From the IMG/VR virus record IMGVR_UViG_3300005253_000056, positions 1-39,961 of that record: 39,961 nucleotides of DNA; one strand, given 5' to 3'. Positions 37,519 to 39,552 of this stretch are shown piece by piece. Positions within the stretch are counted from its first letter, which is position 1; every line of letters begins with the position of its first letter. A program made the position numbers and the translations under genes. The DNA is from a virus. Under the pieces are notes generated by a model. It worked only from the letters and a program-made list of their open reading frames with translations. It had not been told where the DNA came from and made no database searches.

Positions 37519-37787
37519 GTGACATGGAAATTGCGTGCTGGTTCGATATGGGTAGGTCAACTTGTCTACTCCCTGACGACCATGACGGTCCGCACGAACC
37601 GACGCCCGACTCTGAGATCTTCGTGGAGCTGGTAGACAAACCCACGACCGAACCTGTATTGTTGCGTCCGGATGTGACACCCGTCGTATCGCCAACCATC
37701 CGCCTCCCCGGCATACTGGTCGGTGTGGTGCTATCAATCCCTTGGTGGATCGGGTTGTGGCATATCGTGCGGTGGATCTTCTCATGA
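37515..37787 (+). CDS. C-terminally anchored membrane protein (90 aa)
   Basis: The N-terminal part (CWFDMGRSTCLLPDDHDGPH) has Cys and His like its neighbour. The C-terminus is one transmembrane helix (GILVGVVLSIPWWIGLWHIV) ending RWIFS, similar to the 35-aa membrane protein at 1346. Its stop overlaps the methyltransferase start by 4 nt. Function unknown. Confidence 0.65.
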   Translation: MSDMEIACWFDMGRSTCLLPDDHDGPHEPTPDSEIFVELVDKPTTEPVLLRPDVTPVVSPTIRLPGILVGVVLSIPWWIGLWHIVRWIFS

Positions 37788-38434
37788 GAGTCGGGTCGTT
37801 GTTTGCCGGCGTAGGAGGCTTCGATATCGCTGTGGAACGTGCAGGTATGGAAGTAGTGTGGCAGTCAGAGAACGACGAACATGCGTCAAGAGTATTAGAT
37901 CACCACTGGCCTGATCTCAACGTAGGAGACATACATGACATACGTCTCGCTCGATACACGAAGGCAACACGACCGAGATACCTCACTGATCGAGACAAGG
38001 CTGACGCCGTCACGTTCTACAACGCTGGCGAATCAATCGGTTCGGTCGCATCTCGCTTCGCGGTCACCCGACAGGCGATGCACGACATCCTGAAGCGCCG
38101 AACCGAGATGCGACCGAACCTCCGCTATGGGGCAGACAACCACTTCCACAGAGGGACGAAAGCCTCGAAGTCCGCTCACCGCAAGGTCGATAACGCAATC
38201 AAGCGAGGGCGGCTGATACAGCCAAACCGCTGCGAGAACTGTCAAACCGTACCCAAGCCAATGAGCGACGGGCGGACACGGATACAAGCGCACCACGACG
38301 ACTATGACAAGCCGCTCAAGGTGCGATGGTTATGTCAGGAGTGTCACCATGGACAACACAAGCCACGAGGGGAAGGAGGTCAAAGGGAATCCATCGCACC
38401 AGCAGTCGACGTTCTGGTCGGAGGATTCCCGTGA
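37784..38434 (+). CDS. C5 DNA methyltransferase, N-terminal part with in-frame HTH-HNH nuclease insert
   Basis: ATG 37784, coupled by ATGA, begins MRVGSLFAGVGGFDIAVERA, whose FAGVGG is the AdoMet-binding motif I. At residue about 50 (NVGDI) the methyltransferase is broken by about 150 residues. These hold an HTH (GSVASRFAVTRQAMHDIL, then PNLRYGADNHFHRG) and an HNH domain (CENC, then IQAHHDDYDKPLKVRWLCQE, then CHHGQH). The methyltransferase resumes at VDVLVGGFP and stops at TGA 38434, exactly where the catalytic Pro-Cys-Gln should follow. There are no intein splice motifs. The product may act as an HNH nuclease. Confidence 0.85.
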   Translation: MRVGSLFAGVGGFDIAVERAGMEVVWQSENDEHASRVLDHHWPDLNVGDIHDIRLARYTKATRPRYLTDRDKADAVTFYNAGESIGSVASRFAVTRQAMHDILKRRTEMRPNLRYGADNHFHRGTKASKSAHRKVDNAIKRGRLIQPNRCENCQTVPKPMSDGRTRIQAHHDDYDKPLKVRWLCQECHHGQHKPRGEGGQRESIAPAVDVLVGGFP

Positions 38435-38897
38435 AGACCATGCCAAGACTACAGCGTGGCAGGAAACCGCTCGGGTCTGGCTGGAGACCGTGGCGCACTC
38501 TGGTGGCAGTTCCATCGCCTCATCGGTGAGGGACGCCCCACATGGGTTGTCGCAGAGAATGTCCCTGGGCTCCTCAGCAGCCGAGGCGGTGAAGACTTCG
38601 CAACGATCATCGACTCGCTCACCGAACATGGGTATGGCGTGGTCTGGGGGGTGCTTGATGCTCAGTGGTTCGGAGTGGCGCAACGACGCAGACGTGTCTT
38701 CATTGTCGCACATTCTGGAGGTGTCCCCCGACCCGAAGTACTTGCTCTCTCCGAGGGCGTGTTTGGGCATCCTGAACCGGGCCGAGACACGGGGCAAAGC
38801 GTTGCCGGCAGCCTTGAGACACGCCCTACACCAGATCGCTTACGGGCCGAAGAGGGACACATCGTATTCCGGCAGCAGCGAACCACCGACTATGTAG
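38349..38897 (+). CDS. Second-frame protein overlapping the methyltransferase (182 aa)
   Basis: AGGAG at 38337-38341 lies seven bases before ATG 38349. The frame is +1 to the methyltransferase and open through the 9-nt insertion that stops that frame. It contains KTTAWQETARVWLETVAHSG, then GSEWRNDADVSSLSHILE, then YLLSPRACLGILNRAETRG. I recall strings of the type YYLSPKACxGILRRAEKRGK from many phage proteins annotated as hypothetical. They are what the +1 frame of this methyltransferase family encodes. Whether the protein is made and what it does are unknown. Confidence 0.55.
   Translation: MDNTSHEGKEVKGNPSHQQSTFWSEDSREDHAKTTAWQETARVWLETVAHSGGSSIASSVRDAPHGLSQRMSLGSSAAEAVKTSQRSSTRSPNMGMAWSGGCLMLSGSEWRNDADVSSLSHILEVSPDPKYLLSPRACLGILNRAETRGKALPAALRHALHQIAYGPKRDTSYSGSSEPPTM
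38432..38440 (+). other. 9-nt insertion with in-frame TGA at the catalytic motif
   Basis: Removing TGAAGACCA restores GGA TTC CCG TGC CAA GAC, that is G-F-P-C-Q-D, the expected motif IV. The inserted nine bases resemble the following nine (TGCCAAGAC), so it may be an imperfect tandem duplication. It is in frame for both overlapping readings but is nonsense only in the methyltransferase frame. Confidence 0.8.
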
Positions 38898-39301
38898 AGG
38901 ATCAGATTGCTTCAACGGTGGCGGCGAGGGATTACAAGGATGCCACCGATCTCATCGCGTTTGCTCAGAATCAGCGTGGCGAGGTACGCGACCTCGGCGA
39001 TGTGGCTGGTGCGCTCGCTGCCGAACCTGGCATCAAGCAGCAAACCTACGTGGTACACGCCACGCAGACACCGATAGTCGCAGAAGACCGCGCCCATGCT
39101 CTCGGCGTTGAATCGCAGCAAGCCGTTGTCAACTCACAGGTGCGTAAGTTCACGCCCCTTGAGTGTCAGCGCCTTCAAGGATTCCCTGACGACTTCTATG
39201 ACGGCATTAACATGTCCGACACTCAGAAGTATCGGCAGATGGGCAACGCTGTCGCGGTCCCTGTCGTGGAATGGATCATGCGAAGGATCGCAGGATCATG
39301 A
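38435..39301 (+). pseudogene. C5 DNA methyltransferase, C-terminal part cut off by an in-frame TGA
   Basis: The frame resumes directly after TGA 38432-38434 with R-P-C-Q-D-Y-S, so the catalytic Cys is codon 38441-38443 on the far side of the stop. The ENV motif (WVVAENVPGLLSS), WFGVAQRRRRVFIVAHSGG, a target-recognition region and the closing KYRQMGNAVAVPVVEWIMRR follow, and all are intact. The first start codon is GTG 38456, which would give 281 aa without the catalytic Cys. The locus is either a recently inactivated methyltransferase or one needing TGA read-through. Apart from the stop it shows no decay. Confidence 0.8.
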
Positions 39302-39552
39302 GTGTGCGGTCTGAGTTGCGTGCCGAAGCTCTCATCCGAGCTGGTCACCGATGTGAGTGGCCGCAGTGTGACGAGACGAGGTGGCTAGAAATGTCGCACA
39401 TCATCCCGTTGGGTTCCGGCGGCAAGGACGAACTCTCCAACGTGTGGATACTCGATCGTCCACACCACGACCTGTATGACGGGCGGGCCCCGTTCAAACG
39501 GCGGGAGCTCCGTGTCCTAGTAGTCGAGTTGATGAGGTGGCGTCGTGAATGA
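39298..39552 (+). CDS. Stand-alone HNH endonuclease (84 aa)
   Basis: ATG 39298 overlaps the methyltransferase stop. The compact sequence has CEWPQCDETRWLEMSHIIPL, then GSGGKDELSNVWILD and HHDLYDGR, the C-x4-C, H, N and HH-x-x-x-D elements of HNH nucleases. It is a minimal domain. It may cut DNA as a restriction-like partner of the methyltransferase, act in packaging, or be selfish. Linkage to the methyltransferase is by ATGA coupling. A terminator-like hairpin follows. Confidence 0.82.
   Translation: MSVRSELRAEALIRAGHRCEWPQCDETRWLEMSHIIPLGSGGKDELSNVWILDRPHHDLYDGRAPFKRRELRVLVVELMRWRRE

Follow-up and report, generated by a model that had tools for sequence, protein, structure and literature searches.

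We found that the C5-cytosine methyltransferase (Dcm) gene of IMG/VR virus record IMGVR_UViG_3300005253_000056, which we analyzed over a 39,961-nt stretch hereafter referred to as the window, carries a nested gene in its +1 frame. Sequence evidence establishes the nested gene to the extent that such evidence can, and comparison with relatives strongly supports the conclusion that this stretch has coded two proteins at once over long evolutionary distances. We consider it probable that the +1 frame holds a genuine gene, overprinted in ancient times, with its own start, most likely encoding the small (beta) subunit of a two-polypeptide C5-cytosine methyltransferase, with the Dcm frame encoding the large (alpha) subunit. 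The initial annotation of the window, which assigned the +1 protein no function, had suggested a widespread dual-coding region, and both the openness of the frame and the substitution patterns across relatives support this suggestion.

The +1 ORF has the start codon, the 182-codon length and the AGGAG seven bases 5′ of the ATG that the initial annotation had reported (Table 1), and it contains GSEWRNDADVSSLSHILE...YLLSPRACLGILNRAETRG. The surrounding alpha gene has the features of a C5-cytosine DNA methyltransferase (PF00145 and TIGR00675 matches and motifs I, IV, VIII, IX, and X), though a TGA interrupts it between motifs I and IV. Its N-terminal part, for which a TTG at 37742 is an alternative start, carries motif I (SLFAGVGGFD), is fused in frame to an HNH/zinc-finger insertion, and ends at the TGA at 38432-38434. 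We set the boundaries of the insertion, between DIR and AVDVLVGGFP, by eye against the relative L001. In L001 and a second relative, L002, the gene is uninterrupted, with no HNH/zinc-finger insertion. The insertion resembles the homing insertions of actinophage methylases, yet it is in frame here. A second HNH-like ORF (HRCEWPQCDETRWLEMSHIIPLGSGGKDELSNVWILDRPHHDLYDG, 39271-39552) overlaps the Dcm stop, and in phage Thibault an HNH gene (gp106) likewise lies just 3′ of the methylase.

Table 1. Coordinates of the nested gene, the interrupted methyltransferase gene around it, and the candidate nested ORF of phage P1.
Feature	Record	Positions	Strand	Description
Nested gene beta	Window	38349..38897	+	+1 frame of Dcm; ATG 38349 to TAG ending 38897; 182 aa
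Shine-Dalgarno AGGAG	Window	38337..38341	+	7 nt before beta ATG; within 3′ end of HNH insertion
Beta conserved helical domain	Window	38670..38840	+	SEWRNDADVSSLSHILEVSPDPKYLLSPRACLGILNRAETRGKALPAALRHALHQIA; from alignment and AF2
Alpha (Dcm) N part	Window	37784..38434	+	PF00145 4e-12; TIGR00675 5e-11; phrog_363 7e-18
HNH-type endonuclease-like insertion in alpha	Window	37948..38398	+	phrog_2340 endonuclease 6.6e-20
9-nt insertion	Window	38432..38440	+	TGAAGACCA; TGA in Dcm frame, three extra codons (EDH) in +1
Alpha (Dcm) C part	Window	38441..39301	+	PF00145 2e-45; TIGR00675 2.8e-44
P1 candidate nested ORF	NC_005856	66728-67201		ATG 66728, stop ending 67201

The 9-nt insertion places its TGA directly before the catalytic Cys codon of the Dcm frame. 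As had been claimed, it breaks the methyltransferase and merely adds E-D-H to the +1 protein, which reads DSR-EDH-AK across the insertion compared to DSRAK or DSHAK in L001 and L002. The C-terminal part of alpha carries motifs IV-X (CQDYS..., ENVPG, QRRRR, FTPLECQRLQGFP, and MGNAVAVPV), and its earliest in-frame start codon is a GTG at 38456, downstream of the catalytic Cys. With the TGA upstream of the catalytic Cys codon and no start codon in between, the window alpha is probably inactive. Beta is intact in the window although alpha is broken by the in-frame TGA and carries the HNH insertion; beta may be on its way out or may be retained for another reason.

Searching by tblastn with the +1 proteins of the window and its relatives returned 140-212 phage records and about 535 plasmid records. 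The window protein alone matched 140 phage records, while for one typical relative the numbers were 197 phage records and 533 plasmid records, the latter including many P1-like ones. The initial annotation had linked this style of sequence to phage hypothetical proteins; the style is real, and all records checked have it in the +1 frame of Dcm. Among annotated phage records checked for frame, the match was +1 relative to a Dcm or Dmt CDS in P1 and in Cronobacter, Acutalibacteraceae, Enterobacter, Sinorhizobium, Streptococcus, Pasteurella, Caulobacter, Mycobacterium, and Pseudomonas phages. IMG/VR loci and bacterial-genome loci of several phyla likewise matched in the +1 frame of Dcm. Beta is thus found in phages and prophages of Proteobacteria, Firmicutes, Actinobacteria, Acidobacteria, and others, as well as in P1 dmt. 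Aligned proteins share the core SEWPxDAxVCSLSDxLETGxVPxRYFLSxKACxGILRRAEKRGKxLPxxLxxALxxVA. Among the loci examined, none had an in-frame version of the beta domain within Dcm, and in five ordinary dcm genes the +1 frame contained stops and no beta motif. The family phrog_16143, labeled DNA methyltransferase, matches 42 of 54 beta proteins (38304-38894 in the window) and probably holds second-frame products; the matched sequence is not a methyltransferase frame, and the label hides its second-frame nature.

The AF2 model of the window beta predicts three helices over residues 131 to 170 (pLDDT about 86-96). For this protein and one relative, the model was confident at the C-terminal helical domain only, with nearly all of the preceding sequence at low confidence. 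Foldseek and VIA-align searches gave no convincing match to a solved fold, with nothing stronger than E 3.6 or Z 4.4 (sigma domain 2, 4x8k), a match that we did not take as evidence. The BFVD matches of beta were proteins named phage cytosine methyltransferase and the 81-aa protein of Thibault. Pfam, NCBIfam, and PADLOC models gave no convincing match for the beta of the common class of loci described below, and the window protein matched no Pfam or NCBIfam model.

An indication of function comes from the distribution of methyltransferase motifs between the two frames, for which we distinguish three arrangements. In the common class, comprising the window, P1, and most loci, alpha carries motifs I-X and beta consists of the domain only. 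The second arrangement, in which alpha has motifs I-VIII and X and beta adds motif IX, is found in a viral clade recovered with the locus L004 (L357-L436). In the 56 distinct loci of this clade, the +1 ORF runs beyond the conserved domain into motif IX (RRLTPTECERLMGWPDGWT); alpha is open over the same stretch, lacks its own motif IX in all 56, and has motif X in 54. In the third arrangement (L325, L329, and L342), alpha has motifs I-VIII and the C-terminal motifs lie in the beta frame. Across all loci examined, motif IX was in beta or alpha and never in both, as judged by a pattern that misses some variant alpha motifs. In L329, L325, and L331 the +1 frame is fused with Dcm parts as one long ORF, resembling an AquI-like split or a frameshift; some of these fusions may be assembly errors.

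In a profile comparison, the beta proteins of the motif-IX clade aligned with E. coli-type Dcm at E 8e-8, co-linearly from the segment between motifs VIII and IX through motif IX. This score is owed mostly to motif IX, and the domain alone matches the same place weakly. A PADLOC type II MTase model also spans both the domain and motif IX of these proteins. When the beta domain alone was compared with the canonical Dcm segment, the best match fell at the right place with a score of 18.5, against a 95% point of 17.2 and a maximum of 21.0 for shuffled profiles; for the common class, the similarity of the domain alone to canonical Dcm is therefore suggestive only.

Based on these comparisons, we propose that translation of beta would begin at its own start within the methyltransferase mRNA and that beta would bind alpha, supplying in trans the segment that single-chain Dcm has between motifs VIII and IX and that leads into the target-recognition domain. 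In that stretch, the alpha frame would have turned into a nearly neutral linker. In window- and P1-type genes, alpha retains motifs IX and X and beta would give the helical domain only; since alpha has all motifs there, beta would be unnecessary as a source of motif IX. The subunit role is the best-supported function on account of the motif-IX clade and the strict linkage of beta to alpha.

We also explored the hypothesis that the nested gene is real but encodes a protein with a role independent of the methyltransferase, such as phage counter-defence or regulation, and hitch-hikes in the gene. The complete motif set of the common-class alpha is compatible with this explanation, as is the retention of a truncated 81-aa beta in Thibault despite a split and interrupted methylase, and some phages seem to drop beta while alpha stays intact. 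In L104, L169, and L120, the Dcm has a different target-recognition stretch and the beta C-terminus degenerates after GIL, possibly representing losses of beta, and L132 has a stop within beta. Where alpha seems complete and beta is degraded, as in these four loci, beta may be dispensable or work differently. However, free-standing beta was absent from roughly 300 distinct loci in viral contigs, bacterial genomes, phages, and plasmids, motif IX is in beta exactly where it is absent from alpha, and the domain aligns co-linearly with the segment of Dcm between motifs VIII and IX. We therefore regard a separate function as unlikely, though it is the strongest of the alternatives, and favor the subunit reading.

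A second alternative is that programmed +1 frameshifting within alpha yields a different C-terminus and no independent beta. The constancy of the +1 frame throughout, and the presence of C-terminal motifs in that frame at some loci (L329, L342, and L346), would fit such a mechanism. In the common class, however, the frameshift product would be without motifs IX-X, and the internal start signals point to independent initiation. An internal start with a Shine-Dalgarno sequence and an open frame to motif VIII was present in 65 of 68 loci, compared to 1.1 expected, with the ORF beginning at this conserved position. The consensus is AAGGAG at a spacing of 7-9 nt before ATG (44) or TTG (22). The Dcm residues at this position read PDE, giving ATG, or NLE, giving TTG, so that the beta start is kept despite changing Dcm residues. 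We consider frameshifting very unlikely.

HNH insertions bear on the start in a few phages. In the window the insertion displaces the original beta start, and a putative replacement, an ATG preceded by AGGAG, lies within the insertion. In Thibault and Schatzie, both Omegavirus phages, an HNH insertion has cut beta to its C-terminal domain, and the putative start overlaps the HNH end; Thibault gp104 (81 aa), one annotated product, is this shortened domain. In the Mycobacterium phage Schatzie (L347, 1375-2898), the annotators' entry for the methylase reads "coding region not determined; unable to determine intron boundaries," and this difficulty may stem from the nested frame together with the out-of-frame HNH insertion.

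That the nested gene is protein-coding is argued by statistics on loci fetched by Dcm motifs I-IV only, a choice in which the +1 frame played no part. Stops in close homologues would have spoken against a second gene; instead, the +1 frame is open across motif VIII in 72 of 73 of these loci, compared to 22.6 expected when Dcm is recoded using its own synonymous codons. In all 67 distinct Dcm-chosen loci, no stop interrupts this frame within the first 50 codons after motif VIII (QRRRR), and 61 of them have the exact motif. Clostridial-type loci (37/37 open, 14.3 expected) and bacterial-genome loci (61/61 open, 22.6 expected) behave in the same way, with the limitation that both sets were selected by the +1 protein and only the Dcm-motif set is unbiased. 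The beta motif is present in 70 of 72 loci, compared to 0.02 expected from synonymous shuffles.

Substitution patterns lead to the same conclusion and are not explained by Dcm alone. In 34 disjoint pairs, differences at the first, second, and third Dcm codon positions were 0.13/0.08/0.43 at motif I and 0.20/0.15/0.49 after the beta stop, compared to 0.39/0.19/0.17 in the overlap core, where the wobble position is the most constrained. Counting changes by their effect in both frames, dN/dS in the overlap core was 0.23 [0.19-0.27] for beta and 0.75 [0.63-0.90] for Dcm, indicating purifying selection on the beta protein sequence. Changes that alter beta while being silent in Dcm are rarer than the reverse (dSN/dNS 0.31, compared to 9.7 in a non-overlapping control stretch). 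Over the first 30 overlap columns, the conservation of each frame exceeds what the other frame explains.

Synonymous constraint alone could also arise from an RNA structure or binding site, for which we found no positive evidence. We regard this explanation as highly improbable: variation follows a clear three-base periodicity in the +1 frame, +1 amino acids are conserved across large divergence, and no Rfam family matched. For the window by itself, synonymous shuffling of the Dcm C part leaves 152 codons of the +1 frame open in 7% of trials; openness there is unremarkable, and the evidence is comparative and very strong. Although that figure would suit a second frame arising incidentally from constraints on Dcm residues and codons, from shared ancestry, or from a GC-rich composition, we count this least credible explanation as refuted, since synonymous shuffles fail to give the openness, motif, start, or conservation across relatives, Dcm wobble bases are least variable in the overlap core, and the five ordinary dcm genes are without the second frame.

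Enzymes of the proposed kind have precedents. In M.EcoHK31I, the small-subunit gene lies inside the large-subunit gene, in another frame. This natural two-polypeptide C5-methyltransferase (YGGCCR) has motif IX only in its smaller chain and motifs I-VIII, the target-recognition domain, and motif X in its larger chain (PMC3404938). Going by this published description, the viral clade L357-L436 has the same motif split, with two predicted chains of which the smaller has motif IX. The window and other common-class loci differ, since they keep motif IX in alpha and beta is the helical domain only; in the window, motif IX is in alpha and none is in beta. M.AquI is a two-subunit C5-methyltransferase split in the variable region (PMC3404938). 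L325, L329, and the Omegavirus phages resemble it in having the C-terminal part in the +1 frame, whereas its small subunit comprises the distal variable region and motifs IX-X, and beta here overlaps motifs IV-VIII of alpha.

The out-of-frame HNH genes of the ShiLan type, as described in the available portion of the ShiLan paper, likewise involve overlapping frames in a phage methylase gene with an HNH insertion. In the same portion, the second frame is a mobile HNH within the insertion, unlike beta, which is a second frame of the methylase itself, and the beta overlap is not described. We considered whether the window +1 ORF might be such an HNH gene and rejected this, as its protein has no Pfam or NCBIfam match and the HNH-like part is in the alpha frame. 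Our literature searches found no paper describing the methyltransferase/beta overlap. While two-polypeptide C5-methyltransferases were already known, the breadth of the family and its common class with a motif-complete alpha appear to be new. To our knowledge, few long same-strand gene overlaps in dsDNA phages are supported by evidence of this strength.

Taken more broadly, and with somewhat less confidence than in the subunit reading itself, we think it likely that a whole branch of phage cytosine methyltransferases, P1 Dmt included, consists of enzymes with two polypeptides, the small one having been encoded by overprinting in the +1 frame of the large one since before these genes spread across bacterial phyla. 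The common-class large subunit would have ceded the target-recognition entry segment to the nested protein while retaining all catalytic motifs. The overlap extends over several bacterial phyla and hundreds of records in which it is unannotated. The C5 activity of phage methyltransferases, including that of P1 Dmt, may thus have been assayed unaware of a second protein, and recoding or codon-optimizing such genes would destroy beta. The overlap also offers a clear natural case for studying how two unrelated protein frames are maintained in a single piece of DNA when the usual codon-position roles are inverted.
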